Assembly (NCBI GenBank): GCA_031213475.1
Contig: JARUPZ010000018.1
Coordinates: 6,485,680 to 6,549,679, forward strand
From: Nereocystis luetkeana
Lineage: Eukaryota; Sar; Phaeophyceae; Laminariales; Laminariaceae
Direction of reading: 5' to 3'
Length of the DNA stretch: 64,000 nt
The position numbers and the translations under genes were made by a program. Below the pieces are notes generated by a model. The model did no database searches, had not been told where the DNA came from, and was given only the letters and a program-made list of their open reading frames with translations. This document shows positions 1 through 52,718 of this stretch, in pieces; position 1 is the stretch's first letter; every line of letters starts with the position of its first letter.

Positions 1-311
1 CTCCCCCCCTCCCAAGAGCCTTCATTCCTTGCTACGAGTAACCGGTCTCGAAGGCGCGAAGCGAAACAAAATGTTCCCTCCCATGGAACGATCAGTCATC
101 ACTGGGAGTTACTGGGGGTCTTGGGTAACCACGAACTACAACCACGGCAGAAATTCAAGGCCGGGTCACGACATGCGGCGACCAGTACTGGTACGAAGAC
201 TCGACTACGTATCTTCAAGGATCCACAACGACCATCCTCCTACAACTCGTGGACTAGCACCTACCTAGGATACAGTACTACCACCAACCTCCAGCCCACA
301 GTAGATACGAC
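1..311 (+). repeat. Partial monomer at left window edge
   Basis: This unit lacks its first 35 bases and starts inside the C-rich tract. It carries the short A-tract (TCTCGAAGGCG), the TTCATTCC variant and the AAC insertion, so the full unit would be 346 bp. It belongs to the variant class seen only in the first 17 kb. The array therefore continues to the left of the window. Confidence 0.97.
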
Positions 312-675
312 GTGGGGACACCAGCCGGATTAATTATGTGGGTATCCTCCCCCCCTCCCAAGAGCCTTCGTTCCTTGCTACGAGTAACCGGTCTCGAAAA
401 AAGGCGCGAAGCGAAACAAAATGTTCCCTCCCATGGAACGATCAGTCATCACTGGGAGTTACTGGGGGTCTTGGGTAACCACGAACTACAACCACGGCAG
501 AAATTCAAGGCCGGGTCACGACATGCGGCGACCAGTACTGGTACGAAGACTCGACTACGTATCTTCAAGGATCCACAACGACCATCCTCCTACTCGTGGA
601 CTAGCACCTACCTAGGATACAGTACTACCACCAACCTCCAGCCCACAGTAGATACGACGTGGGGACACCAGCCGG

Positions 676-684
676 ATTAATTAT
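676..684 (+). other. AT-rich variable spot of the monomer (example)
   Basis: The commonest form between CCGG and GTGGG is ATTAATTAT. Elsewhere it becomes ATTATTTAT (for example 18249, 19278, 32040), ATTTTTTAT (22727, 25480), AATTTTTAT (39285, 45835), AATTTTTGAT (42043, 48593), AATTTTTTAT (51699, 54460), ATTACTTAT (37570), ATTAACTAT (41009, 47559) and ATTAAATGT (29971). These forms track particular monomer types and are good markers for HOR phase. Confidence 0.85.
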
Positions 685-692
685 GTGGGTAT

Positions 693-706
693 CCTCCCCC
701 CCTCCC
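693..706 (+). other. C-rich tract CCTCCCCCCCTCCC (G-rich on - strand)
   Basis: This tract is present in almost every monomer. The complementary strand reads GGGAGGGGGGGAGG, which can supply three GGG runs plus one GG, so a two-tetrad G-quadruplex is possible but a canonical four-run GGG motif is not reached. The C7 run is kept at constant length in nearly all copies. Rare changes are CCTGCCCCCC (21019, 24120), CCCTCTCAAG (21674, 22365, 24775, 25118, 27536 and 29953 units), CCCCCCTTCC (58583 and 59624 units) and CCCCCCTGAC (52376 unit). Confidence 0.7.
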
Positions 707-727
707 AAGAGCCTTCGTTCCTTGCTA

Positions 728-743
728 CGAGTAACCGGTCTCG
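728..743 (+). other. Imperfect palindrome CGAG-TA-ACCGGT-CTCG (example)
   Basis: CGAG and ACC on the left pair with GGT and CTCG on the right, giving a 7-bp stem interrupted by a TA bulge around the ACCGGT centre. It lies directly before the variable A-tract. Several subfamilies alter it: GAGAAACCGG (8248, 9627), GAGAAACGGG (10656, 12028), ACCAGTCTCG (13407, 15476, 17202), GTGTAACC (14097 and later units), ACCGCTCTCG (21331 onward) and ACCGGCTTCG (20984 type). Confidence 0.6.
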
Positions 744-745
744 AA
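744..745 (+). other. Variable A-tract site, main source of monomer length change
   Basis: The short form TCTCGAAGG gives 343-bp units. The longer forms are A6 (347 bp, for example 397-402), A7 (2380, 4803 and 22017 units), A6T (348 bp, 26155 onward), ATAAAA (22708, 23055, 25461, 25808, 27879), AACAAA after CTTCG (20984 type) and AGAAAAT (32024, 34793). The form present correlates with other variants in the same monomer, so it works as a subfamily label. Slippage in the homopolymer is the likely origin. Confidence 0.85.
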
Positions 746-796
746 GGCGCGAAGCGAAACAAAATGTTCCCTCCCATGGAACGATCAGTCATCACT

Positions 797-818
797 GGGA
801 GTTACTGGGGGTCTTGGG
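797..818 (+). other. Three G-runs on the + strand (example)
   Basis: GGG, GGGGG and GGG occur within 22 bases, separated by 7 and 4 bases. Counting GG pairs this satisfies a two-tetrad quadruplex pattern with loops of about 7, 1 and 4. It lacks a fourth GGG for the standard motif. The run is nearly invariant; one exception is GGGTGTTGGG in the 62381 unit. Together with the C-rich tract, each monomer has one G-rich cluster on each strand about 100 bases apart. Confidence 0.5.
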
Positions 819-873
819 TAACCACGAACTACAACCACGGCAGAAATTCAAGGCCGGGTCACGACATGCGGCG

Positions 874-885
874 ACCAGTACTGGT
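874..885 (+). other. Perfect 12-bp palindrome ACCAGTACTGGT (example)
   Basis: This self-complementary dodecamer with a ScaI-type AGTACT core occurs once per monomer, about 216 bases after the unit start. It is intact in most units. One arm is changed to AGTATTGG in 14 units (20984, 24085, 26503, 26850, 27193, 28920, 29267, 29610, 30296, 30643, 32024, 34793, 60314, 62033) and to AGTACAGG in five (53405, 56166, 57199, 61343, 63067). A second AGTACT lies about 90 bases downstream without the flanking arms. Confidence 0.8.
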
Positions 886-3800
886 ACGAAGACTCGACTA
901 CGTATCTTCAAGGATCCACAACGACCATCCTCCTACTCGTGGACTAGCACCTACCTAGGATACAGTACTACCACCAACCTCCAGCCCACAGTAGATACGA
1001 CGTGGGGACACCAGCCGGATTAATTATGTGGGTATCCTCCCCCCCTCCCAAGAGCCTTCGTTCCTTGCTACGAGTAACCGGTCTCGAAGGCGCGAAGCGA
1101 AACAAAATGTTCCCTCCCATGGAACGATCAGTCATCACTGGGAGTTACTGGGGGTCTTGGGTAACCACGAACTACAACCACGGCAGAAATTCAAGGCCGG
1201 GTCACGACATGCGGCGACCAGTACTGGTACGAAGACTCGACTACGTATCTTCAAGGATCCACAACGACCATCCTCCTACTCGTGGACTAGCACCTACCTA
1301 GGATACAGTACTACCACCAACCTCCAGCCCACAGTAGATACGACGTGGGGACACCAGCCGGATTAATTATGTGGGTATCCTCCCCCCCTCCCAAGTGCCT
1401 TCATTCCTTGCTACGAGTAACCGGTCTCGAAGGCGCGAAGCGAAACAAAATGTTCCCTCCCATGGAACGATCAGTCATCACTGGGAGTTACTGGGGGTCT
1501 TGGGTATCCACGAACTACAACCACGGCAGAAATTCAAGGCCGGGTCACGACATGCGGCGACCAGTACTGGTACGAAGACTCGACTACGTATCTTCAAGGA
1601 TCCACAACGACCATCCTCCTACTCGTGGACTAGCACCTACCTAGGATACAGTACTACCACCAACCTCCAGCCCACAGTAGATACGACGTGGGGACACCAG
1701 CCGGATTAATTATGTGGGTATCCTCCCCCCCTCCCAAGAGCCTTCGTTCCTTGCTACGAGTAACCGGTCTCGAAGGCGCGAAGCGAAACAAAATGTTCCC
1801 TCCCATGGAACGATCAGTCATCACTGGGAGTTACTGGGGGTCTTGGGTAACCACGAACTACAACCACGGCAGAAATTCAAGGCCGGGTCACGACATGCGG
1901 CGACCAGTACTGGTACGAAGACTCGACTACGTATCTTCAAGGATCCACAACGACCATCCTCCTACAACTCGTGGACTAGCACCTACCTAGGATACAGTAC
2001 TACCACCAACCTCCAGCCCACAGTAGATACGACGTGGGGACACCAGCCGGATTAATTATGTGGGTATCCTCCCCCCCTCCCAAGAGCCTTCATTCCTTGC
2101 TACGAGTAACCGGTCTCGAAGGCGCGAAGCGAAACAAAATGTTCCCTCCCATGGAACGATCAGTCATCACTGGGAGTTACTGGGGGTCTTGGGTAACCAC
2201 GAACTACAACCACGGCAGAAATTCAAGGCCGGGTCACGACATGCGGCGACCAGTACTGGTACGAAGACTCGACTACGTATCTTCAAGGATCCACAACGAC
2301 CATCCTCCTACAACTCGTGGACTAGCACCTACCTAGGATACAGTACTACCACCAGCCTCCAGCCCACAGTAGATACGACGTGGGGACACCAGCCGGATTA
2401 ATTATGTGGGTATCCTCCCCCCCTCCCAAGAGCCTTCGTTCCTTGCTACGAGTAACCGGTCTCGAAAAAAAGGCGCGAAGCGAAACAAAATGTTCCCTCC
2501 GATGGAACGATCAGTCATCACTGGGAGTTACTGGGGGTCTTGGGTAACCACGAACTACAACCACGGCAGAAATTCAAGGCCGGGTCACGACATGCGGCGA
2601 CCAGTACTGGTACGAAGACTCGACTACGTATCTTCAAGGATCCACAACGACCATCCTCCTACAACTCGTGGACTAGCACCTACCTAGGATACAGTACTAC
2701 CACCAACCTCCAGCCCACAGTAGATACGACGTGGGGACACCAGCCGGATTAATTATGTGGGTATCCTCCCCCCCTCCCAAGAGCCTTCGTTCCTTGCTAC
2801 GAGTAACCGGTCTCGAAAAAAGGCGCGAAGCGAAACAAAATGTTCCCTCCCATGGAACGATCAGTCATCACTGGGAGTTACTGGGGGTCTTGGGTAACCA
2901 CGAACTACAACCACGGCAGAAATTCAAGGCCGGGTCACGACATGCGGCGACCAGTACTGGTACGAAGACTCGACTACGTATCTTCAAGGATCCACAACGA
3001 CCATCCTCCTACTCGTGGACTAGCACCTACCTAGGATACAGTACTACCACCAACCTCCAGCCCACAGTAGATACGACGTGGGGACACCAGCCGGATTAAT
3101 TATGTGGGTATCCTCCCCCCCTCCCAAGAGCCTTCGTTCCTTGCTACGAGTAACCGGTCTCGAAAAAAGGCGCGAAGCGAAACAAAATGTTCCCTCCCAT
3201 GGAACGATCAGTCATCACTGGGAGTTACTGGGGGTCTTGGGTAACCACGAACTACAACCACGGCAGAAATTCAAGGCCGGGTCACGACATGCGGCGACCA
3301 GTACTGGTACGAAGACTCGACTACGTATCTTCAAGGATCCACAACGACCATCCTCCTACTCGTGGACTAGCACCTACCTAGGATACAGTACTACCACCAA
3401 CCTCCAGCCCACAGTAGATACGACGTGGGGACACCAGCCGGATTAATTATGTGGGTATCCTCCCCCCCTCCCAAGAGCCTTCGTTCCTTGCTACGAGTAA
3501 CCGGTCTCGAAGGCGCGAAGCGAAACAAAATGTTCCCTCCCATGGAACGATCAGTCATCACTGGGAGTTACTGGGGGTCTTGGGTAACCACGAACTACAA
3601 CCACGGCAGAAATTCAAGGCCGGGTCACGACATGCGGCGACCAGTACTGGTACGAAGACTCGACTACGTATCTTCAAGGATCCACAACGACCATCCTCCT
3701 ACTCGTGGACTAGCACCTACCTAGGATACAGTACTACCACCAACCTCCAGCCCACAGTAGATACGACGTGGGGACACCAGCCGGATTAATTATGTGGGTA

Positions 3801-5150
3801 TCCTCCCCCCCTCCCAAGTGCCTTCATTCCTTGCTACAAGTAACCGGTCTCGAAGGCGCGAAGCGAAACAAAATGTTCCCTCCCATGGAACGATCAGTCA
3901 TCACTGGGAGTTACTGGGGGTCTTGGGTATCCACGAACTACAACCACGGCAGAAATTCAAGGCCGGGTCACGACATGCGGCGACCAGTACTGGTACGAAG
4001 ACTCGACTACGTATCTTCAAGGATCCACAACGACCATCCTCCTACTCGTGGACTAGCACCTACCTAGGATACAGTACTACCACCAACCTCCAGCCCACAG
4101 TAGATACGACGTGGGGACACCAGCCGGATTAATTATGTGGGTATCCTCCCCCCCTCCCAAGAGCCTTCGTTCCTTGCTACGAGTAACCGGTCTCGAAGGC
4201 GCGAAGCGAAACAAAATGTTCCCTCCCATGGAACGATCAGTCATCACTGGGAGTTACTGGGGGTCTTGGGTAACCACGAACTACAACCACGGCAGAAATT
4301 CAAGGCCGGGTCACGACATGCGGCGACCAGTACTGGTACGAAGACTCGACTACGTATCTTCAAGGATCCACAACGACCATCCTCCTACAACTCGTGGACT
4401 AGCACCTACCTAGGATACAGTACTACCACCAACCTCCAGCCCACAGTAGATACGACGTGGGGACACCAGCCGGATTAATTATGTGGGTATCCTCCCCCCC
4501 TCCCAAGAGCCTTCATTCCTTGCTACGAGTAACCGGTCTCGAAGGCGCGAAGCGAAACAAAATGTTCCCTCCCATGGAACGATCAGTCATCACTGGGAGT
4601 TACTGGGGGTCTTGGGTAACCACGAACTACAACCACGGCAGAAATTCAAGGCCGGGTCACGACATGCGGCGACCAGTACTGGTACGAAGACTCGACTACG
4701 TATCTTCAAGGATCCACAACGACCATCCTCCTACAACTCGTGGACTAGCACCTACCTAGGATACAGTACTACCACCAGCCTCCAGCCCACAGTAGATACG
4801 ACGTGGGGACACCAGCCGGATTAATTATGTGGGTATCCTCCCCCCCTCCCAAGAGCCTTCGTTCCTTGCTACGAGTAACCGGTCTCGAAAAAAAGGCGCG
4901 AAGCGAAACAAAATGTTCCCTCCCATGGAACGATCAGTCATCACTGGGAGTTACTGGGGGTCTTGGGTAACCACGAACTACAACCACGGCAGAAATTCAA
5001 GGCCGGGTCACGACATGCGGCGACCAGTACTGGTACGAAGACTCGACTACGTATCTTCAAGGATCCACAACGACCATCCTCCTACTCGTGGACTAGCACC
5101 TACCTAGGATACAGTACTACCACCAACCTCCAGCCCACAGTAGATACGAC

Positions 5151-7211
5151 GTGGGGACACCAGCCGGATTAATTATGTGGGTATCCTCCCCCCCTCCCAA
5201 GAGCCTTCATTCCTTGCTACGAGTAACCGGTCTCGAAGGCGCGAAGCGAAACAAAATGTTCCCTCCCATGGAACGATCAGTCATCACTGGGAGTTACTGG
5301 GGGTCTTGGGTAACCACGAACTACAACCACGGCAGAAATTCAAGGCCGGGTCACGACATGCGGCGACCAGTACTGGTACGAAGACTCGACTACTTATCTT
5401 CAAGGATCCACAACGACCATCCTCCTACTCGTGGACTAGCACCTACCTAGGATACAGTACTACCACCAACCTCCAGCCCACAGTAGATACGACGTGGGGA
5501 CACCAGCCGGATTAATTATGTGGGTATCCTCCCCCCCTCCCAAGAGCCTTCATTCCTTGCTACGAGTAACCGGTCTCGAAGGCGCGAAGCGAAACAAAAT
5601 GTTCCCTCCCATGGAACGATCAGTCATCACTGGGAGTTACTGGGGGTCTTGGGTAACCACGAACTACAACCACGGCAGAAATTCAAGGCCGGGTCACGAC
5701 ATGCGGCGACCAGTACTGGTACGAAGACTCGACTACGTATCTTCAAGGATCCACAACGACCATCCTCCTACAACTCGTGGACTAGCACCTACCTAGGATA
5801 CAGTACTACCACCAACCTCCAGCCCACAGTAGATACGACGTGGGGACACCAGCCGGATTAATTATGTGGGTATCCTCCCCCCCTCCCAAGAGCCTTCGTT
5901 CCTTGCTACGAGTAACCGGTCTCGAAGGCGCGAAGCGAAACAAAATGTTCCCTCCCATGGAACGATCAGTCATCACTGGGAGTTACTGGGGGTCTTGGGT
6001 AACCACGAACTACAACCACGGCAGAAATTCAAGGCCGGGTCACGACATGCGGCGACCAGTACTGGTACGAAGACTCGACTACGTATCTTCAAGGATCCAC
6101 AACGACCATCCTCCTACTCGTGGACTAGCACCTACCTAGGATACAGTACTACCACCAACCTCCAGCCCACAGTAGATACGACGTGGGGACACCAGCCGGA
6201 TTAATTATGTGGGTATCCTCCCCCCCTCCCAAGTGCCTTCATTCCTTGCTACGAGTAACCGGTCTCGAAGGCGCGAAGCGAAACAAAATGTTCCCTCCCA
6301 TGGAACGATCAGTCATCACTGGGAGTTACTGGGGGTCTTGGGTAACCACGAACTACAACCACGGCAGAAATTCAAGGCCGGGTCACGACATGCGGCGACC
6401 AGTACTGGTACGAAGACTCGACTACGTATCTTCAAGGATCCACAACGACCATCCTCCTACTCGTGGACTAGCACCTACCTAGGATACAGTACTACCACCA
6501 ACCTCCAGCCCACAGTAGATACGACGTGAGGAAACCAGCCGGATTATTTATGTGGGTATCCTCCCCCCCTCCCAAGAGCCTTCATTCCTTGCTACGAGTA
6601 ACCGGTCTCGAAGGCGCGAAGCGAAACAAAATGTTCCCTCCCATGGAACGATCAGTCATCACTGGGAGTTACTGGGGGTCTTGGGTAACCACGAACTACA
6701 ACCACGGCAGAAATTCAAGGCCGGGTCACGACATGCGGCGACCAGTACTGGTACGAAGACTCGACTACGTATCTTCAAGGATCCACAACGACCATCCTCC
6801 TACTCGTGGACTAGCACCTACCTAGGATACAGTACTACCACCAACCTCCAGCCCACAGTAGATACGACGTGGGGACACCAGCCGGATTAATTATGTGGGT
6901 ATCCTCCCCCCCTCCCAAGAGCCTTCATTCCTTGCTACGAGTAACCGGTCTCGAAGGCGCGAAGCGAAACAAAATGTTCCCTCCCATGGAACGATCAGTC
7001 ATCACTGGGAGTTACTGGGGGTCTTGGGTAACCACGAACTACAACCACGGCAGAAATTCAAGGCCGGGTCACGACATGCGGCGACCAGTACTGGTACGAA
7101 GACTCGACTACGTATCTTCAAGGATCCACAACGACCATCCTCCTACTCGTGGACTAGCACCTACCTAGGATACAGTACTACCACCAACCTCCAGCCCACA
7201 GTAGATACGAC
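5151..7211 (+). repeat. Irregular run of six monomers
   Basis: Units start at 5151, 5494, 5840, 6183, 6526 and 6869 (343, 346, 343, 343, 343, 343 bp). I find no repeated order here. Private changes are ACTACTTATC in 5151 and GTGAGGAAACC with ATTATTTAT at the start of 6526. Unit 6183 carries CAAGTGCC without the GGGTATCC that goes with it elsewhere, so it looks like a recombinant of two types. Unit 6869 appears identical to the next unit, 7212. Confidence 0.8.
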
Positions 7212-9969
7212 GTGGGGACACCAGCCGGATTAATTATGTGGGTATCCTCCCCCCCTCCCAAGAGCCTTCATTCCTTGCTACGAGTAACCGGTCTCGAAGG
7301 CGCGAAGCGAAACAAAATGTTCCCTCCCATGGAACGATCAGTCATCACTGGGAGTTACTGGGGGTCTTGGGTAACCACGAACTACAACCACGGCAGAAAT
7401 TCAAGGCCGGGTCACGACATGCGGCGACCAGTACTGGTACGAAGACTCGACTACGTATCTTCAAGGATCCACAACGACCATCCTCCTACTCGTGGACTAG
7501 CACCTACCTAGGATACAGTACTACCACCAACCTCCAGCCCACAGTAGATACGACGTGGGGACACCAGCCGGATTAATTATGTGGGTATCCTCCCCCCCTC
7601 CCAAGAGCCTTCATTCCTTGCTACGAGTAACCGGTCTCGAAGGCGCGAAGCGAAACAAAATGTTCCCTCCCATGGAACGATCAGTCATCACTGGGAGTTA
7701 CTGGGGGTCTTGGGTAACCACGAACTACAACCACGGCAGAATTTCAAGGCCGGGTCACGACATGCGGCGACCAGTACTGGTACGAAGACTCGACTACGTA
7801 TCTTCAAGGATCCACAACGACCATCCTCCTACAACTCGTGGACTAGCACCTACCTAGGATACAGTACTACCACCAACCTCCAGCCCACAGTAGATACGAC
7901 GTGGGGACACCAGCCGGATTAATTATGTGGGTATCCTCCCCCCCTCCCAAGAGCCTTCGTTCCTTGCTACGAGTAACCGGTCTCGAAAAAAGGCGCGAAG
8001 CGAAACAAAATGTTCCCTCCCATGGAACGATCAGTCATCACTGGGAGTTACTGGGGGTCTTGGGTAACCACGAACTACAACCACGGCAGAAATTCAAGGC
8101 CGGGTCACGACATGCGGCGACCAGTACTGGTACGAAGACTCGACTACGTATCTTCAAGGATCCACAACGACCATCCTCCTACTCGTGGACTAGCACCTAC
8201 CTAGGATACAGTACTACCACCAACCTCCAGCCCACAGTAGATACGACGTGGGGACACCAGCCGGATTAATTATGTGGGTATCCTCCCCCCCTCCCAAGAG
8301 CCTTCGTTCCTTGCTACGAGAAACCGGTCTCGAAGGCGCGAAGCGAAACAAAATGTTCCCTCCCATGGAACGATCAGTCATCACTGGGAGTTACTGGGGG
8401 TCTTGGGTAACCACGAACTACAACCACGGCAGAAATTCAAGGCCGGGTCACGACATGCGGCGACCAGTACTGGTACGAAGACTCGACTACGTATCTTCAA
8501 GGATCCACAACGACCATCCTCCTACTCGTGGACTAGCACCTACCTAGGATACAGTACTACCACCAACCTCCAGCCCACAGTAGATACGACGTGGGGACAC
8601 CAGCCGGATTAATTATGTGGGTATCCTCCCCCCCTCCCAAGAGCCTTCATTCCTTGCTACGAGTAACCGGTCTCGAAGGCGCGAAGCGAAACAAAATGTT
8701 CCCTCCCATGGAACGATCAGTCATCACTGGGAGTTACTGGGGGTCTTGGGTAACCACGAACTACAACCACGGCAGAAATTCAAGGCCGGGTCACGACATG
8801 CGGCGACCAGTACTGGTACGAAGACTCGACTACGTATCTTCAAGGATCCACAACGACCATCCTCCTACTCGTGGACTAGCACCTACCTAGGATACAGTAC
8901 TACCACCAACCTCCAGCCCACAGTAGATACGACGTGGGGACACCAGCCGGATTAATTATGTGGGTATCCTCCCCCCCTCCCAAGAGCCTTCATTCCTTGC
9001 TACGAGTAACCGGTCTCGAAGGCGCGAAGCGAAACAAAATGTTCCCTCCCATGGAACGATCAGTCATCACTGGGAGTTACTGGGGGTCTTGGGTAACCAC
9101 GAACTACAACCACGGCAGAATTTCAAGGCCGGGTCACGACATGCGGCGACCAGTACTGGTACGAAGACTCGACTACGTATCTTCAAGGATCCACAACGAC
9201 CATCCTCCTACAACTCGTGGACTAGCACCTACCTAGGATACAGTACTACCACCAACCTCCAGCCCACAGTAGATACGACGTGGGGACACCAGCCGGATTA
9301 ATTATGTGGGTATCCTCCCCCCCTCCCAAGAGCCTTCGTTCCTTGCTACGAGTAACCGGTCTCGAAAAAAGGCGCGAAGCGAAACAAAATGTTCCCTCCC
9401 ATGGAACGATCAGTCATCACTGGGAGTTACTGGGGGTCTTGGGTAACCACGAACTACAACCACGGCAGAAATTCAAGGCCGGGTCACGACATGCGGCGAC
9501 CAGTACTGGTACGAAGACTCGACTACGTATCTTCAAGGATCCACAACGACCATCCTCCTACTCGTGGACTAGCACCTACCTAGGATACAGTACTACCACC
9601 AACCTCCAGCCCACAGTAGATACGACGTGGGGACACCAGCCGGATTAATTATGTGGGTATCCTCCCCCCCTCCCAAGAGCCTTCGTTCCTTGCTACGAGA
9701 AACCGGTCTCGAAGGCGCGAAGCGAAACAAAATGTTCCCTCCCATGGAACGATCAGTCATCACTGGGAGTTACTGGGGGTCTTGGGTAACCACGAACTAC
9801 AACCACGGCAGAAATTCAAGGCCGGGTCACGACATGCGGCGACCAGTACTGGTACGAAGACTCGACTACGTATCTTCAAGGATCCACAACGACCATCCTC
9901 CTACTCGTGGACTAGCACCTACCTAGGATACAGTACTACCACCAACCTCCAGCCCACAGTAGATACGAC
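7212..9969 (+). repeat. 4-monomer HOR, two copies of 1379 bp
   Basis: Copy 1 is units 7212, 7555, 7901, 8248. Copy 2 is units 8591, 8934, 9280, 9627. Every unit is offset by exactly 1379 bp. Shared markers are CAGAATTTCAAGG plus the AAC insertion in unit 2, A6 in unit 3 and GAGAAACCGG in unit 4. I noticed no substitution between the copies, so the duplication is recent or homogenised. Confidence 0.93.
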
Positions 9970-37551: not shown

Positions 37552-38923
37552 GTGGGGACACCAGCCGGATTACTTATGTGGGTATCCTCCCCCCCTCCCA
37601 AGAGCCTTCGTTCCTTGCTACGAGTAACCGGTCTCGAAGGCGCGAAGCGCAACAAAATGTTTCCTCCCATGGAACGATCAGTCTTCACTGGGAGTTACTG
37701 GGGGTCTTGGGTAACCACGAACTACAACCACGGCAGAAATTCAAGGCCGGGTCACGACATGCGGCGACCAGTACTGGTACGAAGACTCGACTACGTATCT
37801 TCAAGGATCCACAACGACCATCCTTCTACTCGTGGACTAGCACCTACCTAGGATACAGTACTACCACCAACCTCCAGCCCACAGTAGATACGACGTGGGG
37901 ACACCAGCCGGATTAATTATGTGGGTATCCTCCCCCCCTCCCAAGAGCCTTCGTTCCTTGCTACGAGTAACCGGTCTCGAAGGCGCGAAGCGAAACAAAA
38001 TGTTCCCTCCCATGGAACGATCAGTCATCACTGGGAGTTACTGGGGGTCTTGGGTAACCACGAACTACAACCACGGCAGAAATTCAAGGCCTGGTCACGA
38101 TATGCGGCGACCAGTACTGGTACGAAGACTCGACTACGTATCTTCAAGGATCCACAACGACCATCCTCCTACTCGTGGACTAGCACCTACCTAGGATACA
38201 GTACTACCACCAACCTCCAGCCCACAGTAGATACGACGTGGGGACACCAGCCGGATTAATTATGTGGGTATCCTCCCCCCCTCCCAAGAGCCTTCGTTCC
38301 TTGCTACGAGTAACCGGTCTCGAAGGCGCGAAGCGCAACAAAATGTTTCCTCCCATGGAACGATCAGTCTTCACTGGGAGTTACTGGGGGTCTTGGGTAA
38401 CCACGAACTACAACCACGGCAGAAATTCAAGGCCGGGTCACGACATGCGGCGACCAGTACTGGTACGAAGACTCGACTACGTATCTTCAAGGATCCACAA
38501 CGACCATCCTTCTACTCGTGGACTAGCACCTACCTAGGATACAGTACTACCACCAACCTCCAGCCCACAGTAGATACGACGTGGGGACACCAGCCGGATT
38601 AATTATGTGGGTATCCTCCCCCCCTCCCAAGAGCCTTCGTTCCTTGCTACGAGTAACCGGTCTCGAAGGCGCGAAGCGAAACAAAATGTTCCCTCCCATG
38701 GAACGATCAGTCATCACTGGGAGTTACTGGGGGTCTTGGGTAACCACGAACTACAACCACGGTAGAAATTCAAGGCCTGGTCACGATATGCGGCGACCAG
38801 TACTGGTACGAAGACTCGACTACGTATCTTCAAGGATCCACAACGACCATCCTCCTACTCGTGGACTAGCACCTACCTAGGATACAGTACTACCACCAAC
38901 CTCCAGCCCACAGTAGATACGAC
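37552..38923 (+). repeat. 2-monomer HOR, two copies of 686 bp
   Basis: Units 37552 and 37895 repeat as 38238 and 38581. Unit 1 has GCGCAAC, GTTTCC, GTCTTCACTG and CATCCTTCTAC. Unit 2 has AGGCCTGGTCACGATATG. Differences are ATTACTTAT at 37570 and GGTAGAAATT in 38581. Units 37895 onward also form the left part of the 6550-bp duplication. Confidence 0.88.
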
Positions 38924-39613
38924 GTGGGGACACCACCCGGATTAATTATGTGGGTATCCTCCCCCCCTCCCAAGAGCCTTCGTTCCTTGCTACGAGTAAC
39001 CGGTCTCGAAGGCGCGAAGCGCAACAAAATGTTTCCTCCCATGGAACGATCAGTCATCACTGGGAGTTACTGGGGGTCTTGGGTAACCACGAACTACAAC
39101 CACGGTAGAAATTCAAGGCCTGGTCACGACATGCGGCGACCAGTACTGGTACGAAGACTAGACTACGTATCTTCAAGGATCCACAACGACCATCCTCCTA
39201 CTCGTGGACTAGCACCTACCTAGGATACAGTACTACCACCAACCTCCAGCCCACAGTAGATACGACGTGGGGACACCAGCCGGAATTTTTATGTGGGTAT
39301 CCTCCCCCCCTCCCAAGAGCCTTCGTTCCTGGCTACGAGTAACCGGTCTCGAAAAAAGGCGCGAAGCGAAACAAAATGTTCCCTCCCATGGAACGATCAG
39401 TCTTCACTGGGAGTTACTGGGGGTCTTGGGTAACCACGAACTACAACCACGGCAGAAATTCAAGGCCGGGTCACGACATGCGGCGACCAGTACTGGTACG
39501 AAGACTCGACTACGTATCTTCAAGGATCCACAACGACCATCCTCCTACTCGTGGACTAGCACCTACCTAGGATACAGTACTACCACCAACCTCCAGCCCA
39601 CAGTAGATACGAC

Positions 39614-42600
39614 GTGGGGACACCAGCCGGATTATTTATGTGGGTATCCTCCCCCCCTCCCAAGAGCCTTCGTTCCTTGCTACGAGTAACCGGTCTCGAA
39701 GGCGCGAAGCGAAACAAAATGTTCCCTCCCATGGAACGATCAGTCATCACTGGGAGTTACTGGGGGTCTTGGGTAACCACGAACTACAACCACGGCAGAA
39801 ATTCAAGGCCTGGTCACGATATGCGGCGACCAGTACTGGTACGAAGACTCGACTACGTATCTTCAAGGATCCACACAGACCATCCTCTGACTCGTGGACT
39901 AGCACCTACCTAGGATACAGTACTACCACCAACCTCCAGCCCACAGTAGATACGACGTGGGGACACCAGCCGGATTAATTATGTGGGTATCCTCCCCCCC
40001 TCCCAAGAGCCTTCGTTCCTTGCTACGAGCAACCGCTCTCGAAGGCGCGAAGCGCAACAAAATGTTTCCTCCCATGGAACGATCAGTCTTCACTGGGAGT
40101 TACTGGGGGTCTTGGGTAACCACGAACTACAACCACGGCAGAAATTCAAGGCCGGGTCACGACATGCGGCGACCAGTACTGGTACGAAGACTCGACTACG
40201 TATCTTCAAGGATCCACAACGACCATCCTCCTACTCGTGGACTAGCACCTACCTAGGATACAGTACTACCACCAACCTCCAGCCCACAGTAGATACGACG
40301 TGGGGACACCAGCCGGATTAATTATGTGGGTATCCTCCCCCCCTCCCAAGAGCCTTCGTTCCTTGCTACGAGTAACCGGTCTCGAAAAAATGGCGCGAAG
40401 CGAAACAAAATGTTCCCTCCCATGGAACGATCAGTCATCACTGGGAGTTACTGGGGGTCTTGGGTAACCACGAACTACAACCACGGCAGAAATTCAAGGC
40501 CGGGTCACGACATGCGGCGACCAGTACTGGTACGAAGACTCGACTACGTATCTTCAAGGATCCACAACGACCATCCTCCTACTCGTGGACTAGCACCTAC
40601 CTAGGATACAGTACTACCACCAACCTCCAGCCCACAGTAGATACGACGTGGGGACACCAGCCGGATTAATTATGTGGGTATCCTCCCCCCCTCCCAAGAG
40701 CCTTCGTTCCTTGCTACGAGCAACCGCTCTCGAAGGCGCGAAGCGCAACAAAATGTTCCCTCCCATGGAACGATCAGTCTTCACTGGGAGTTACTGGGGG
40801 TCTTGGGTAACCACGAACTACAACCACGGCAGAAATTCAAGGCCGGGTCACGACATGCGGCGACCAGTACTGGTACGAAGACTCGACTACGTATCTTCAA
40901 GGATCCACAACGACCATCCTCCTACTCGTGGACTAGCACCTACCTAGGATACAGTACTACCACCAACCTCCAGCCCACAGTAGATACGACGTGGGGACAC
41001 CAGCCGGATTAACTATGTGGGTATCCTCCCCCCCTCCCAAGAGCCTTCGTTCCTTGCTACGAGTAACCGGTCTCGAAAAAATGGCGCGAAGCGAAACAAA
41101 ATGTTCCCTCCCATGGAACGATCAGTCATCACTGGGAGTTACTGGGGGTCTTGGGTAACCACGAACTACAACCACGGCAGAAATTCAAGGCCGGGTCACG
41201 ACATGCGGCGACCAGTACTGGTACGAAGACTCGACTACGTATCTTCAAGGATCCACAACGACCATCCTCCTACTCGTGGACTAGCACCTACCTAGGATAC
41301 AGTACTACCACCAACCTCCAGCCCACAGTAGATACGACGTGGGGACACCAGCCGGATTAATTATGTGGGTATCCTCCCCCCCTCCCAAGAGCCTTCGTTC
41401 CTTGCTACGAGTAACCGGTCTCGAAGGCGCGAAGCGAAACAAAATGTTCCCTCCCATGGAACGATCAGTCATCACTGGGAGTTACTGGGGGTCTTGGGTA
41501 ACCACGAACTACAACCACGGCAGAAATTCAAGGCCTGGTCACGACATGCGGCGACCAGTACTGGTACGAAGACTCGACTACGTATCTTCAAGGATCCACA
41601 ACGACCATCCTTCTACTCGTGGACTAGCACCTACCTAGGATACAGTACTACCACCAACCTCCAGCCCACAGTAGATACGACGTGGGGACACCAGCCGGAT
41701 TAATTATGTGGGTATCCTCCCCCCCTCCCAAGAGCCTTCGTTCCTTGCTACGAGTAACCGCTCTCGAAGGCGCGAAGCGCAACAAAATGTTTCCTCCCAT
41801 GGAACGATCAGTCTTCACTGGGAGTTACTGGGGGTCTTGGGTAACCACGAACTACAACCACGGCAGAAATTCAAGGCCGGGTCACGACATGCGGCGACCA
41901 GTACTGGTACGAAGACTCGACTACGTATCTTCAAGGATCCACAACGACCATCCTTCTACTCGTGGACTAGCACCTACCTAGGATACAGTACTACCACCAA
42001 CCTCCAGCCCACAGTAGATACGACGTGGGGACACCAGCCGGAATTTTTGATGTGGGTATCCTCCCCCCCTCCCAAGAGCCTTCGTTCCTTGCTACGAGTA
42101 ACCGGTCTCGAAAAAAGGCGCGAAGCGAAACAAAATGTTCCCTCCCATGGAACGATCAGGCATCACTGGGAGTTACTGGGGGTCTTGGGTAACCACGAAC
42201 TTCAACCACGGCAGAAATTCAAGGCCGGGTCACGATATGCCGCGACCAGTACTGGTACGAAGACTCGACTACGTATCTTCAAGGATCCACAACGACCATC
42301 CTCCTACTCGTGGACTAGCACCTACCTAGGATACAGTACTACCACCAACCTCCAGCCCACAGTAGATACGACGTGGGGACACCAGCCGGATTATTTATGT
42401 GGGTATCCTCCCCCCCTCCCAAGAGCCTTCGTTCCTTGCTACGAGTAACCGGTCTCGAAAAAAGGCGCGAAGCGAAACAAAATGTTCCCTCCCATGGAAC
42501 GATCAGTCATCACTGGGAGTTACTGGGGGTCTTGGGTAACCACGAACTACAACCACGGCAGAAATTCAAGGCCGGGTCACGACATGCGGCGACCAGTACT

Positions 42601-44787
42601 GGTACGAAGGCTCGACTACGTATCTTCAAGGATCCACAACGACCATCCTCCTACTCGTGGACTAGCACCTACCTAGGATACAGTACTACCACCAACCTCC
42701 AGCCCACAGTAGATACGACGTGGGGACACCAGCCGGATTAATTATGTGGGTATCCTCCCCCCCTCCCAAGAGCCTTCGTTCCTTGCTACGAGTAACCGGT
42801 CTCGAAGGCGCGAAGCGAAACAAAATGTTCCCTCCCATGGAACGATCAGTCATCACTGGGAGTTACTGGGGGTCTTGGGTAACCACGAACTACAACCACG
42901 GCAGAAATTCAAGGCCTGGTCACGATATGCGGCGACCAGTACTGGTACGAAGACTCGACTACGTATCTTCAAGGATCCACACAGACCATCCTCCGACTCG
43001 TGGACTAGCACCTACCTAGGATACAGTACTACCACCAACCTCCAGCCCACAGTAGATACGACGTGGGGACACCAGCCGGATTAATTATGTGGGTATCCTC
43101 CCCCCCTCCCAAGAGCCTTCGTTCCTTGCTACGAGCAACCGCTCTCGAAGGCGCGAAGCGCAACAAAATGTTTCCTCCCATGGAACGATCAGTCTTCACT
43201 GGGAGTTACTGGGGGTCTTGGGTAACCACGAACTACAACCACGGCAGAAATTCAAGGCCGGGTCACGACATGCGGCGACCAGTACTGGTACGAAGACTCG
43301 ACTACGTATCTTCAAGGATCCACAACGACCATCCTCCTACTCGTGGACTAGCACCTACCTAGGATACAGTACTACCACCAACCTCCAGCCCACAGTAGAT
43401 ACGACGTGGGGACACCAGCCGGATTAATTATGTGGGTATCCTCCCCCCCTCCCAAGAGCCTTCGTTCCTTGCTACGAGTAACCGGTCTCGAAAAAATGGC
43501 GCGAAGCGAAACAAAATGTTCCCTCCCATGGAACGATCAGTCATCACTGGGAGTTACTGGGGGTCTTGGGTAACCACGAACTACAACCACGGCAGAAATT
43601 CAAGGCCGGGTCACGACATGCGGCGACCAGTACTGGTACGAAGACTCGACTACGTATCTTCAAGGATCCACAACGACCATCCTCCTACTCGTGGACTAGC
43701 ACCTACCTAGGATACAGTACTACCACCAACCTCCAGCCCACAGTAGATACGACGTGGGGACACCAGCCGGATTAATTATGTGGGTATCCTCCCCCCCTCC
43801 CAAGAGCCTTCGTTCCTTGCTACGAGCAACCGCTCTCGAAGGCGCGAAGCGCAACAAAATGTTTCCTCCCATGGAACGATCAGTCTTCACTGGGAGTTAC
43901 TGGGGGTCTTGGGTAACCACGAACTACAACCACGGCAGAAATTCAAGGCCGGGTCACGACATGCGGCGACCAGTACTGGTACGAAGACTCGACTACGTAT
44001 CTTCAAGGATCCACAACGACCATCCTCCTACTCGTGGACTAGCACCTACCTAGGATACAGTACTACCACCAACCTCCAGCCCACAGTAGATACGACGTGG
44101 GGACACCAGCCGGATTAATTATGTGGGTATCCTCCCCCCCTCCCAAGAGCCTTCGTTCCTTGCTACGAGTAACCGGTCTCGAAAAAATGGCGCGAAGCGA
44201 AACAAAATGTTCCCTCCCATGGAACGATCAGTCATCACTGGGAGTTACTGGGGGTCTTGGGTAACCACGAACTACAACCACGGCAGAAATTCAAGGCCGG
44301 GTCACGACATGCGGCGACCAGTACTGGTACGAAGACTCGACTACGTATCTTCAAGGATCCACAACGACCATCCTCCTACTCGTGGACTAGCACCTACCTA
44401 GGATACAGTACTACCACCAACCTCCAGCCCACAGTAGATACGACGTGGGGACACCAGCCGGATTAATTATGTGGGTATCCTCCCCCCCTCCCAAGAGCCT
44501 TCGTTCCTTGCTACGAGTAACCGGTCTCGAAGGCGCGAAGCGAAACAAAATGTTCCCTCCCATGGAACGATCAGTCATCACTGGGAGTTACTGGGGGTCT
44601 TGGGTAACCACGAACTACAACCACGGCAGAAATTCAAGGCCTGGTCACGACATGCGGCGACCAGTACTGGTACGAAGACTCGACTACGTATCTTCAAGGA
44701 TCCACAACGACCATCCTCCTACTCGTGGACTAGCACCTACCTAGGATACAGTACTACCACCAACCTCCAGCCCACAGTAGATACGAC
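39614..44787 (+). repeat. Nested 9-monomer HOR (3106 bp), first pair, second member cut short
   Basis: Units 39614, 39957, 40300, 40648, 40991, 41339, 41682, 42025, 42373 form a 3106-bp block. Units 42720, 43063, 43406, 43754, 44097 and 44445 repeat its first six. Markers are CCACACAGACC, GAGCAACCGCTCTCG, A6T units alternating with GAGCAACC units, and AGGCCTGGTCACG. Members differ in CTCTGAC against CTCCGAC, GTTCCC against GTTTCC (40648/43754) and ATTAACTAT against ATTAATTAT (40991/44097). The second member stops inside unit 44445, where the 6550-bp duplication begins again. Confidence 0.9.
44445..44787 (+). repeat. Junction monomer of the 6550-bp duplication
   Basis: At 44651 this unit has C (CACGACATG), as in units 41339, 47889 and 50995, whereas its partner 37895 has T. 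At 44718 it has C (CATCCTCC), as in 37895, whereas 41339, 47889 and 50995 have T. It is therefore a hybrid: left part from the sixth unit of the 9-mer, right part from the 37895 type. The crossover lies between 44651 and 44718. Confidence 0.88.
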
Positions 44788-46163
44788 GTGGGGACACCAG
44801 CCGGATTAATTATGTGGGTATCCTCCCCCCCTCCCAAGAGCCTTCGTTCCTTGCTACGAGTAACCGGTCTCGAAGGCGCGAAGCGCAACAAAATGTTTCC
44901 TCCCATGGAACGATCAGTCTTCACTGGGAGTTACTGGGGGTCTTGGGTAACCACGAACTACAACCACGGCAGAAATTCAAGGCCGGGTCACGACATGCGG
45001 CGACCAGTACTGGTACGAAGACTCGACTACGTATCTTCAAGGATCCACAACGACCATCCTTCTACTCGTGGACTAGCACCTACCTAGGATACAGTACTAC
45101 CACCAACCTCCAGCCCACAGTAGATACGACGTGGGGACACCAGCCGGATTAATTATGTGGGTATCCTCCCCCCCTCCCAAGAGCCTTCGTTCCTTGCTAC
45201 GAGTAACCGGTCTCGAAGGCGCGAAGCGAAACAAAATGTTCCCTCCCATGGAACGATCAGTCATCACTGGGAGTTACTGGGGGTCTTGGGTAACCACGAA
45301 CTACAACCACGGTAGAAATTCAAGGCCTGGTCACGATATGCGGCGACCAGTACTGGTACGAAGACTCGACTACGTATCTTCAAGGATCCACAACGACCAT
45401 CCTCCTACTCGTGGACTAGCACCTACCTAGGATACAGTACTACCACCAACCTCCAGCCCACAGTAGATACGACGTGGGGACACCACCCGGATTAATTATG
45501 TGGGTATCCTCCCCCCCTCCCAAGAGCCTTCGTTCCTTGCTACGAGTAACCGGTCTCGAAGGCGCGAAGCGCAACAAAATGTTTCCTCCCATGGAACGAT
45601 CAGTCATCACTGGGAGTTACTGGGGGTCTTGGGTAACCACGAACTACAACCACGGTAGAAATTCAAGGCCTGGTCACGACATGCGGCGACCAGTACTGGT
45701 ACGAAGACTAGACTACGTATCTTCAAGGATCCACAACGACCATCCTCCTACTCGTGGACTAGCACCTACCTAGGATACAGTACTACCACCAACCTCCAGC
45801 CCACAGTAGATACGACGTGGGGACACCAGCCGGAATTTTTATGTGGGTATCCTCCCCCCCTCCCAAGAGCCTTCGTTCCTGGCTACGAGTAACCGGTCTC
45901 GAAAAAAGGCGCGAAGCGAAACAAAATGTTCCCTCCCATGGAACGATCAGTCTTCACTGGGAGTTACTGGGGGTCTTGGGTAACCACGAACTACAACCAC
46001 GGCAGAAATTCAAGGCCGGGTCACGACATGCGGCGACCAGTACTGGTACGAAGACTCGACTACGTATCTTCAAGGATCCACAACGACCATCCTCCTACTC
46101 GTGGACTAGCACCTACCTAGGATACAGTACTACCACCAACCTCCAGCCCACAGTAGATACGAC

Positions 46164-49100
46164 GTGGGGACACCAGCCGGATTATTTATGTGGGTATCCT
46201 CCCCCCCTCCCAAGAGCCTTCGTTCCTTGCTACGAGTAACCGGTCTCGAAGGCGCGAAGCGAAACAAAATGTTCCCTCCCATGGAACGATCAGTCATCAC
46301 TGGGAGTTACTGGGGGTCTTGGGTAACCACGAACTACAACCACGGCAGAAATTCAAGGCCTGGTCACGATATGCGGCGACCAGTACTGGTACGAAGACTC
46401 GACTACGTATCTTCAAGGATCCACACAGACCATCCTCTGACTCGTGGACTAGCACCTACCTAGGATACAGTACTACCACCAACCTCCAGCCCACAGTAGA
46501 TACGACGTGGGGACACCAGCCGGATTAATTATGTGGGTATCCTCCCCCCCTCCCAAGAGCCTTCGTTCCTTGCTACGAGCAACCGCTCTCGAAGGCGCGA
46601 AGCGCAACAAAATGTTTCCTCCCATGGAACGATCAGTCTTCACTGGGAGTTACTGGGGGTCTTGGGTAACCACGAACTACAACCACGGCAGAAATTCAAG
46701 GCCGGGTCACGACATGCGGCGACCAGTACTGGTACGAAGACTCGACTACGTATCTTCAAGGATCCACAACGACCATCCTCCTACTCGTGGACTAGCACCT
46801 ACCTAGGATACAGTACTACCACCAACCTCCAGCCCACAGTAGATACGACGTGGGGACACCAGCCGGATTAATTATGTGGGTATCCTCCCCCCCTCCCAAG
46901 AGCCTTCGTTCCTTGCTACGAGTAACCGGTCTCGAAAAAATGGCGCGAAGCGAAACAAAATGTTCCCTCCCATGGAACGATCAGTCATCACTGGGAGTTA
47001 CTGGGGGTCTTGGGTAACCACGAACTACAACCACGGCAGAAATTCAAGGCCGGGTCACGACATGCGGCGACCAGTACTGGTACGAAGACTCGACTACGTA
47101 TCTTCAAGGATCCACAACGACCATCCTCCTACTCGTGGACTAGCACCTACCTAGGATACAGTACTACCACCAACCTCCAGCCCACAGTAGATACGACGTG
47201 GGGACACCAGCCGGATTAATTATGTGGGTATCCTCCCCCCCTCCCAAGAGCCTTCGTTCCTTGCTACGAGCAACCGCTCTCGAAGGCGCGAAGCGCAACA
47301 AAATGTTCCCTCCCATGGAACGATCAGTCTTCACTGGGAGTTACTGGGGGTCTTGGGTAACCACGAACTACAACCACGGCAGAAATTCAAGGCCGGGTCA
47401 CGACATGCGGCGACCAGTACTGGTACGAAGACTCGACTACGTATCTTCAAGGATCCACAACGACCATCCTCCTACTCGTGGACTAGCACCTACCTAGGAT
47501 ACAGTACTACCACCAACCTCCAGCCCACAGTAGATACGACGTGGGGACACCAGCCGGATTAACTATGTGGGTATCCTCCCCCCCTCCCAAGAGCCTTCGT
47601 TCCTTGCTACGAGTAACCGGTCTCGAAAAAATGGCGCGAAGCGAAACAAAATGTTCCCTCCCATGGAACGATCAGTCATCACTGGGAGTTACTGGGGGTC
47701 TTGGGTAACCACGAACTACAACCACGGCAGAAATTCAAGGCCGGGTCACGACATGCGGCGACCAGTACTGGTACGAAGACTCGACTACGTATCTTCAAGG
47801 ATCCACAACGACCATCCTCCTACTCGTGGACTAGCACCTACCTAGGATACAGTACTACCACCAACCTCCAGCCCACAGTAGATACGACGTGGGGACACCA
47901 GCCGGATTAATTATGTGGGTATCCTCCCCCCCTCCCAAGAGCCTTCGTTCCTTGCTACGAGTAACCGGTCTCGAAGGCGCGAAGCGAAACAAAATGTTCC
48001 CTCCCATGGAACGATCAGTCATCACTGGGAGTTACTGGGGGTCTTGGGTAACCACGAACTACAACCACGGCAGAAATTCAAGGCCTGGTCACGACATGCG
48101 GCGACCAGTACTGGTACGAAGACTCGACTACGTATCTTCAAGGATCCACAACGACCATCCTTCTACTCGTGGACTAGCACCTACCTAGGATACAGTACTA
48201 CCACCAACCTCCAGCCCACAGTAGATACGACGTGGGGACACCAGCCGGATTAATTATGTGGGTATCCTCCCCCCCTCCCAAGAGCCTTCGTTCCTTGCTA
48301 CGAGTAACCGCTCTCGAAGGCGCGAAGCGCAACAAAATGTTTCCTCCCATGGAACGATCAGTCTTCACTGGGAGTTACTGGGGGTCTTGGGTAACCACGA
48401 ACTACAACCACGGCAGAAATTCAAGGCCGGGTCACGACATGCGGCGACCAGTACTGGTACGAAGACTCGACTACGTATCTTCAAGGATCCACAACGACCA
48501 TCCTTCTACTCGTGGACTAGCACCTACCTAGGATACAGTACTACCACCAACCTCCAGCCCACAGTAGATACGACGTGGGGACACCAGCCGGAATTTTTGA
48601 TGTGGGTATCCTCCCCCCCTCCCAAGAGCCTTCGTTCCTTGCTACGAGTAACCGGTCTCGAAAAAAGGCGCGAAGCGAAACAAAATGTTCCCTCCCATGG
48701 AACGATCAGGCATCACTGGGAGTTACTGGGGGTCTTGGGTAACCACGAACTTCAACCACGGCAGAAATTCAAGGCCGGGTCACGATATGCCGCGACCAGT
48801 ACTGGTACGAAGACTCGACTACGTATCTTCAAGGATCCACAACGACCATCCTCCTACTCGTGGACTAGCACCTACCTAGGATACAGTACTACCACCAACC
48901 TCCAGCCCACAGTAGATACGACGTGGGGACACCAGCCGGATTATTTATGTGGGTATCCTCCCCCCCTCCCAAGAGCCTTCGTTCCTTGCTACGAGTAACC
49001 GGTCTCGAAAAAAGGCGCGAAGCGAAACAAAATGTTCCCTCCCATGGAACGATCAGTCATCACTGGGAGTTACTGGGGGTCTTGGGTAACCACGAACTAC

Positions 49101-52100
49101 AACCACGGCAGAAATTCAAGGCCGGGTCACGACATGCGGCGACCAGTACTGGTACGAAGGCTCGACTACGTATCTTCAAGGATCCACAACGACCATCCTC
49201 CTACTCGTGGACTAGCACCTACCTAGGATACAGTACTACCACCAACCTCCAGCCCACAGTAGATACGACGTGGGGACACCAGCCGGATTAATTATGTGGG
49301 TATCCTCCCCCCCTCCCAAGAGCCTTCGTTCCTTGCTACGAGTAACCGGTCTCGAAGGCGCGAAGCGAAACAAAATGTTCCCTCCCATGGAACGATCAGT
49401 CATCACTGGGAGTTACTGGGGGTCTTGGGTAACCACGAACTACAACCACGGCAGAAATTCAAGGCCTGGTCACGATATGCGGCGACCAGTACTGGTACGA
49501 AGACTCGACTACGTATCTTCAAGGATCCACACAGACCATCCTCCGACTCGTGGACTAGCACCTACCTAGGATACAGTACTACCACCAACCTCCAGCCCAC
49601 AGTAGATACGACGTGGGGACACCAGCCGGATTAATTATGTGGGTATCCTCCCCCCCTCCCAAGAGCCTTCGTTCCTTGCTACGAGCAACCGCTCTCGAAG
49701 GCGCGAAGCGCAACAAAATGTTTCCTCCCATGGAACGATCAGTCTTCACTGGGAGTTACTGGGGGTCTTGGGTAACCACGAACTACAACCACGGCAGAAA
49801 TTCAAGGCCGGGTCACGACATGCGGCGACCAGTACTGGTACGAAGACTCGACTACGTATCTTCAAGGATCCACAACGACCATCCTCCTACTCGTGGACTA
49901 GCACCTACCTAGGATACAGTACTACCACCAACCTCCAGCCCACAGTAGATACGACGTGGGGACACCAGCCGGATTAATTATGTGGGTATCCTCCCCCCCT
50001 CCCAAGAGCCTTCGTTCCTTGCTACGAGTAACCGGTCTCGAAAAAATGGCGCGAAGCGAAACAAAATGTTCCCTCCCATGGAACGATCAGTCATCACTGG
50101 GAGTTACTGGGGGTCTTGGGTAACCACGAACTACAACCACGGCAGAAATTCAAGGCCGGGTCACGACATGCGGCGACCAGTACTGGTACGAAGACTCGAC
50201 TACGTATCTTCAAGGATCCACAACGACCATCCTCCTACTCGTGGACTAGCACCTACCTAGGATACAGTACTACCACCAACCTCCAGCCCACAGTAGATAC
50301 GACGTGGGGACACCAGCCGGATTAATTATGTGGGTATCCTCCCCCCCTCCCAAGAGCCTTCGTTCCTTGCTACGAGCAACCGCTCTCGAAGGCGCGAAGC
50401 GCAACAAAATGTTTCCTCCCATGGAACGATCAGTCTTCACTGGGAGTTACTGGGGGTCTTGGGTAACCACGAACTACAACCACGGCAGAAATTCAAGGCC
50501 GGGTCACGACATGCGGCGACCAGTACTGGTACGAAGACTCGACTACGTATCTTCAAGGATCCACAACGACCATCCTCCTACTCGTGGACTAGCACCTACC
50601 TAGGATACAGTACTACCACCAACCTCCAGCCCACAGTAGATACGACGTGGGGACACCAGCCGGATTAATTATGTGGGTATCCTCCCCCCCTCCCAAGAGC
50701 CTTCGTTCCTTGCTACGAGTAACCGGTCTCGAAAAAATGGCGCGAAGCGAAACAAAATGTTCCCTCCCATGGAACGATCAGTCATCACTGGGAGTTACTG
50801 GGGGTCTTGGGTAACCACGAACTACAACCACGGCAGAAATTCAAGGCCGGGTCACGACATGCGGCGACCAGTACTGGTACGAAGACTCGACTACGTATCT
50901 TCAAGGATCCACAACGACCATCCTCCTACTCGTGGACTAGCACCTACCTAGGATACAGTACTACCACCAACCTCCAGCCCACAGTAGATACGACGTGGGG
51001 ACACCAGCCGGATTAATTATGTGGGTATCCTCCCCCCCTCCCAAGAGCCTTCGTTCCTTGCTACGAGTAACCGGTCTCGAAGGCGCGAAGCGAAACAAAA
51101 TGTTCCCTCCCATGGAACGATCAGTCATCACTGGGAGTTACTGGGGGTCTTGGGTAACCACGAACTACAACCACGGCAGAAATTCAAGGCCTGGTCACGA
51201 CATGCGGCGACCAGTACTGGTACGAAGACTCGACTACGTATCTTCAAGGATCCACAACGACCATCCTTCTACTCGTGGACTAGCACCTACCTAGGATACA
51301 GTACTACCACCAACCTCCAGCCCACAGTAGATACGACGTGGGGACACCAGCCGGATTAATTATGTGGGTATCCTCCCCCCCTCCCAAGAGCCTTCGTTCC
51401 TTGCTACGAGTAACCGCTCTCGAAGGCGCGAAGCGCAACAAAATGTTTCCTCCCATGGAACGATCAGTCTTCACTGGGAGTTACTGGGGGTCTTGGGTAA
51501 CCACGAACTACAACCACGGCAGAAATTCAAGGCCGGGTCACGACATGCGGCGACCAGTACTGGTACGAAGACTCGACTACGTATCTTCAAGGATCCACAA
51601 CGACCATCCTTCTACTCGTGGACTAGCACCTACCTAGGATACAGTACTACCACCAACCTCCAGCCCACAGTAGATACGACGTGGGGACACCAGCCGGAAT
51701 TTTTTATGTGGGTATCCTCCCCCCCTCCCAAGAGCCTTCGTTCCTTGCTACGAGTAACCGGTCTCGAAAAAAGGCGCGAAGCGAAACAAAATGTTCCCTC
51801 CCATGGAACGATCAGGCATCACTGGGAGTTACTGGGGGTCTTGGGTAACCACGAACTACAACCACGGCAGAAATTCAAGGCCGGGTCACGATATGCCGCG
51901 ACCAGTACTGGTACGAAGACTCGACTACGTATCTTCAAGGATCCACAACGACCATCCTCCTACTCGTGGACTAGCACCTACCTAGGATACAGTACTACCA
52001 CCAACCTCCAGCCCACAGTAGATACGACGTGGGGACACCAGCCGGATTAATTATGTGGGTATCCTCCCCCCCTCCCAAGAGCCTTCGTTCCTTGCTACGA

Positions 52101-52375
52101 GTAACCGGTCTCGAAAAAAGGCGCGAAGCGAAACAAAATGTTCCCTCCCATGGAACGATCAGTCATCACTGGGAGTTACTGGGGGTCTTGGGTAACCACG
52201 AACTACAACCACGGCAGAAATTCAAGGCCGGGTCACGACATGCGGCGACCAGTACTGGTACGAAGACTCGACTACGTATCTTCAAGGATCCACAACGACC
52301 ATCCTCCTACTCGTGGACTAGCACCTACCTAGGATACAGTACTACCACCAACCTCCAGCCCACAGTAGATACGAC
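46164..52375 (+). repeat. Nested 9-monomer HOR (3106 bp), second pair, both members complete
   Basis: Units 46164 to 48923 form one block and 49270, 49613, 49956, 50304, 50647, 50995, 51338, 51681, 52029 form a full second block at an offset of 3106 bp. In the first pair the second block has only six units. Late differences are ATTTTTGATG with GAACTTCAACC (48575) against AATTTTTTAT with GAACTACAACC (51681), and GAAGGCTCGAC (48923) against GAAGACTCGAC (52029). Confidence 0.9.
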
Positions 52376-52718
52376 GTGGGGACACCAGCCGGATTATTTA
52401 TGTGGGTATCCTCCCCCCCTGACAAGAGCCTTCGTTCCTTGCTACGAGTAACCGCTCTCGAAGGCGCGAAGCGCAACAAAATGTTTCCTCCCATGGAACG
52501 ATCAGTCATCACTGGGAGTTACTGGGGGTCTTGGGTAACCACGAACTACAACCACGGCAGAAATTCAAGGCCTGGTCACGACATGCGGCGACCAGTACTG
52601 GTACGAAGACTCGACTACGTATCTTCAAGGATCCACAACGACCATCCTTCTACTCGTGGACTAGCACCTACCTAGGATACAGTACTACCACCAACCTCCA
52701 GCCCACAGTAGATACGAC
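52376..52718 (+). repeat. Single recombinant-looking monomer
   Basis: This 343-bp unit combines ATTATTTAT, the private CCCCCCTGACAAG, ACCGCTCTCG, GCGCAAC and GTTTCC with GTCATCACTG, AGGCCTGGTCACGAC and CATCCTTCTAC. The left half resembles unit 51338 and the right half unit 50995. It ends the 9-mer region. Confidence 0.8.

Follow-up and report, generated by a model that had tools for sequence, protein, structure and literature searches.

A tract of tandem repeats in the kelp Nereocystis luetkeana raises the question of whether a pair of nearly identical blocks, each 19 monomers long, represents a higher-order organization of the repeat or a local duplication of one segment. The stretch of DNA analyzed, referred to here as the window, comprises 64,000 nucleotides of contig JARUPZ010000018.1 (C18:6485680-6549679); the contig has 10.885 Mb and the assembly 1987 contigs and 465,085,209 bases in total. 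Positions without a contig prefix are those of the window. Elsewhere in this assembly COX1 was found on contig C1987, with 7jro_a, a plant entry, as its best solved-structure match by phmmer, and its neighbors on that contig look similar to nad2, nad9 and cob.

The whole window (1-64000) is satellite DNA, a single repeat unit arrayed head to tail over a long distance. Tandem Repeats Finder (TRF) reported ~185.6 copies of a 343-bp consensus with 97% matches, all monomers lying on the same strand, and the 185 monomers into which the window was cut represent 110 distinct sequences with a mean of 5.3 differences from the consensus. Their lengths fall mainly into classes of 343, 347 and 348 bp, separated by an insertion of 4-5 bases near consensus position 282 (282-284), the four-base part of which is present in 77 of the 185 monomers. 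CpG depletion is slight (observed/expected 0.90). No RNA family of Rfam matched positions 37800-51500 at gathering thresholds, no tRNA or tmRNA was found within the 64-kb window, and six open frames reach 150 aa or more in this sequence, which is satellite throughout.

The array extends well beyond the window. The 264 kb at C18:6395680-6659679, which include it, are unbroken satellite on one strand with no N, and edge pieces and probes place the array limits at C18:6245811 and C18:6776001, which gives 530,191 bp if the array is continuous; these 264 kb and both edges were read, and the remainder was sampled at 10 probes, all of them satellite. The final 1.5 kb of the contig consist of TTAGGG repeats and the initial 1.5 kb are devoid of them, so that the array is internal, ~4.1 Mb from the telomere. 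GC content is ~46-62% in most of the probes flanking the array, and long G/C runs are present; together with the near-expected CpG and the TTAGGG end, this composition may point to a brown alga. At the left edge (C18:6245811-6246400) the initial monomers are degenerate and apparently rearranged; at the right edge the array stops abruptly within a near-consensus monomer, and a GTA/AGT trinucleotide repeat of ~650 bp lies ~1 kb farther to the right, at about C18:6776995-6777655. Short monomers of 269-274 bp, in which ~74 bp are lost, occur at C18:6397781, 6398393, 6442837 and 6444486, and an 881-bp stretch at C18:6607310 contains three monomers including two deletions of this ~74-bp type. A satellite search of the genome, in which 32 of 169 candidates were scored, named at least C18 and six other contigs, two of which, C722 and C1438, measure 20-30 kb each.

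Within this array, the original prediction had pointed to monomers that pair with partners 6550 bp downstream, and the lag analysis of 37895-51337 bore this out: 6550 bp ranks first among lags 20-7999, with 99.97% identity, and corresponds to 19.00 monomers. The longest exact match at this lag covers 6616 bp (38102-44717 against 44652-51267), which places copy 1 of the duplication at 38102-44651 and copy 2 at 44652-51201, with no difference between the true copies over 6550 bp; by the rule of three their divergence is below ~0.05%. From position 37801 on, mismatches at this lag are listed at 37825, 38101, 44718 and 44867, with register lost at 45149, and the left edge of the relation falls inside the 200-bp bin 37601-37800. 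Thus, of the three differences predicted near the tract ends, two lie within the proposed pairing range (37895-44788) and the third, at 44867, is just outside it. The expectation of at least eight rare private markers agrees with eight distinct variants that, of the 764 monomers in the 264 kb, only those of the two copies carry. When the order of these 764 monomers was shuffled (n=20), the longest exact repeat reached 831-1160 bp as compared with the 6616 bp observed, and chance is therefore excluded. As no base differs between the copies, the exchange that linked them would be recent, in keeping with the very recent event originally proposed, and the data support the view that this is a real, ordinary segmental tandem duplication inside a satellite.

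The exact match exceeds the lag by 66 bp, which locates the exchange point within 44652-44717; in monomer coordinates this interval is 62 to 127, flanked by the diagnostic positions 61 and 128. The monomer that spans this interval (44591-44933) is a hybrid whose left part resembles the monomer at 51141 and whose right part resembles that at 38041: it differs from the former at positions 128 and 277 alone and from the latter at the single position 61, while the two parents differ from each other at precisely positions 61, 128 and 277. A single switch between parents is thus observed at the 44591 junction, the one to which this comparison applies, and the 700-bp surroundings of the junction occur once in 264 kb. 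In view of the diagnostic positions of the hybrid, the mismatches near the ends of the duplication are best read as older differences between the parent stretches flanking the crossover and probably did not arise after copying; the mismatch at 37825 falls in the monomer adjoining the parent monomer.

A shorter relation is nested in this structure. In copy 1, six monomers match at a lag of 3106 bp (1, 0, 1, 1, 0 and 2 differences) before register is lost, and in copy 2 nine monomers do so (1, 0, 1, 1, 0, 0, 1, 2 and 7 differences). The nested 3106-bp 9-mer and its contrasting lengths of six and nine units, both anticipated from the letters, were thus recovered, but the ninth unit is weak. The 9-monomer unit of copy 1 occupies 39760-42865 and its second copy, from 42866, is truncated by what would be the younger crossover, as the run stops at the junction, where the sixth partner is the hybrid monomer and the seventh lies in the next 19-monomer copy. 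In copy 2 the unit and its partner (46310-52521) extend into the right flank, with eight good monomers in addition to the weak ninth. Since one run ends at the junction and the other enters the flank, the 9-monomer duplication is placed earlier, and a 19-monomer duplication that copied part of it accounts for six versus nine units with no extra event. On this evidence the 9-mer would be an older duplication carried inside, and shortened by, the younger 19-monomer crossover.

Duplications of this kind are frequent in the surrounding array. Taking as an exact tandem duplication any match at least as long as its lag, with lags up to 20 kb, 44 were detected in 264 kb: 23 of about one monomer, nine of two, four of three, two of nine and one each of 4, 5, 6, 8, 17 and 19 monomers, two of the two-monomer rows being one event present in both 19-monomer copies. 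For the 21 duplications with at least two monomers, the length never deviates from a whole monomer number by more than 0.03. No exact repeat in the 264 kb is longer than the 19-mer, which heads a graded series and is followed by a 17-mer (lag 5859, 6032 bp exact); a 26-monomer relation (lag 8973, 6379 bp exact) has a match shorter than its lag and is incomplete as an exact tandem copy. Identical monomers amount to ~2-5% at separations of 1 to 10 monomers and to 0.5% or less at 100 or more, and monomers differ on average by 9.1 to 10.7 at sampled separations of 1 to 400 and 14.4 at 600. A single exchange hotspot in the monomer was considered and rejected, since one exchange interval spans monomer positions 62-128 and another 135-203, with no overlap, and the 21 listed events share no site. 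In the length range 10 to 30 bp, the consensus carries no perfect palindrome other than ACCAGTACTGGT, at position 70, and a shorter one within it, and the place of ACCAGTACTGGT lies outside 8 of the 21 listed exchange intervals.

The excerpts of PMC8122249 consulted use the term higher-order repeat for a block of several monomers that underwent amplification and homogenization, and the predicted reading of the locus as one such repeat inside another would have the 19-mer and the 9-mer act as working homogenization units of a true higher-order array. Two nearly identical 19-mers, each with a repeated 9-mer inside, are what such a reading calls for, but in the strict sense it is unsupported, as each of these units is present in about two copies. 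No unit of 2 to 39 monomers forms many homogenized tandem copies in the 264 kb analyzed (of ~530 kb): the highest copy numbers are 3.5 for 2-mers, 3.0 for 3-mers, 2.5 for 4-mers and 2.29 for larger units up to 39-mers, with the 19-mer reaching 2.11, and the differences between monomers have no dominant period across the sampled separations. The duplications of this array are mostly segment pairs and not higher-order arrays, and a working higher-order repeat is very improbable. Rolling-circle copying followed by reinsertion of an excised 19-monomer circle deserves still less credence. Such reinsertion also yields exact head-to-tail copies of whole monomers, and the duplicated length here is in whole monomers as this product would give; a reinserted product, however, would often exceed two copies, while just two are present and one exchange junction accounts for every diagnostic base.

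A more serious concern, though an unlikely one, is that the assembler entered one 6550-bp block twice or joined two haplotype paths. The copies show zero differences, only 4 mismatches separate the parent stretches across 798 bp or more, so that noisy reads might be confused there, and small contigs repeat parts of the array exactly: three pieces of C722 (9.5 of its 29.9 kb) and two overlapping pieces of C1438 are base-for-base identical to and colinear with C18, and from these exact copies in all five sampled pieces it follows that the assembly is redundant over the satellite and that its placement of sequence was not unique throughout. C722 was considered as an independent test of the junction and dropped, as it begins at position 46928, ~2.2 kb to the right, and the redundancy neither confirms nor refutes the junction. 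Against an artifact stand the hybrid monomer, which makes the junction specific, and its surroundings, which are single in 264 kb. If the reads were accurate, a false join would depend on the 66 identical bp that two diagnostic bases enclose; many shorter duplications in the array are likewise built of whole monomers; and the nested 9-mer already carries substitutions.

In our judgment, the 19-monomer duplication very probably arose, as a recent and ordinary event, by unequal homologous exchange in register or by an equivalent repair driven by homology. Two near-identical monomers 19 monomers apart would have paired out of register, and a single exchange inside the 66-bp identical stretch would have produced two head-to-tail copies of 19 monomers linked by the hybrid monomer; the older 9-monomer duplication would have been within the copied block and, in the first copy, truncated where the junction lies. 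The assembled letters show directly both copies, the whole-monomer register, the hybrid monomer and many similar structures nearby. Exchange in register is expected to duplicate monomers in whole numbers, as is the case here (19.00) and throughout the 21 events. The position of the 19-mer at the tail of the size range and the redundancy of the assembly in this array count against the exchange reading. That unequal exchange between sisters or homologues was responsible, rather than break-induced replication or other homology-driven repair, is what we infer; all of them leave the same product.

As to the role of the 530-kb array, it may be one chromosome's centromere, or a block resembling a centromere, a doubtful but conceivable reading in which the exact repeats of 2 to 26 monomers would reflect present turnover by exchange. 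Searches on brown-algal and kelp satellites, centromeres, and 343-bp and TTAGGG-linked satellites, in which the portions of text retrieved were compared by words, returned no description of this satellite, and none was found that combines satellite, unequal crossing, higher-order repeat and local duplication. In the parts of PMC11541908 and PMC12477816 consulted, Ectocarpus has a specific satellite at the subtelomeres and retrotransposon-rich centromeres with tandem repeats making up only 3.5%, whereas here ~530 kb of one satellite are internal in the contig. If the centromere reading were true, the lineage would be one for which there are few descriptions of large satellite centromeres. For a brown alga, an internal satellite block of this size would stand apart from the retrotransposon-rich centromeres that the same portion of PMC11541908 gives for Ectocarpus.

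The accepted picture of satellite DNA is unchanged by the 19-monomer duplication alone. Its value is that of a clean worked example of how a satellite array grows, in which the exchange can be narrowed to 66 bp and two nested events can be put in order, and, if reads confirm it, the array would supply a list of ordered exchange events from which to measure turnover. Among known systems, the closest is the unequal-exchange model of satellite evolution, which is said to go back to Smith. Local whole-monomer head-to-tail duplications in an array that is ~97% alike are shared with this model, here with the hybrid monomer at the junction; the data do not differ from it, 19 monomers being at the large end of the range found here. 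The model is also named in the excerpts of PMC8122249, where the higher-order repeats of primate alpha satellite resemble this locus in having multi-monomer blocks that, from copy to copy, are more similar than neighboring monomers are. In those excerpts, however, the primate blocks are amplified and the monomers within a block are ~70% alike, whereas in N. luetkeana there are about two copies of the block and the monomers are ~97% alike.
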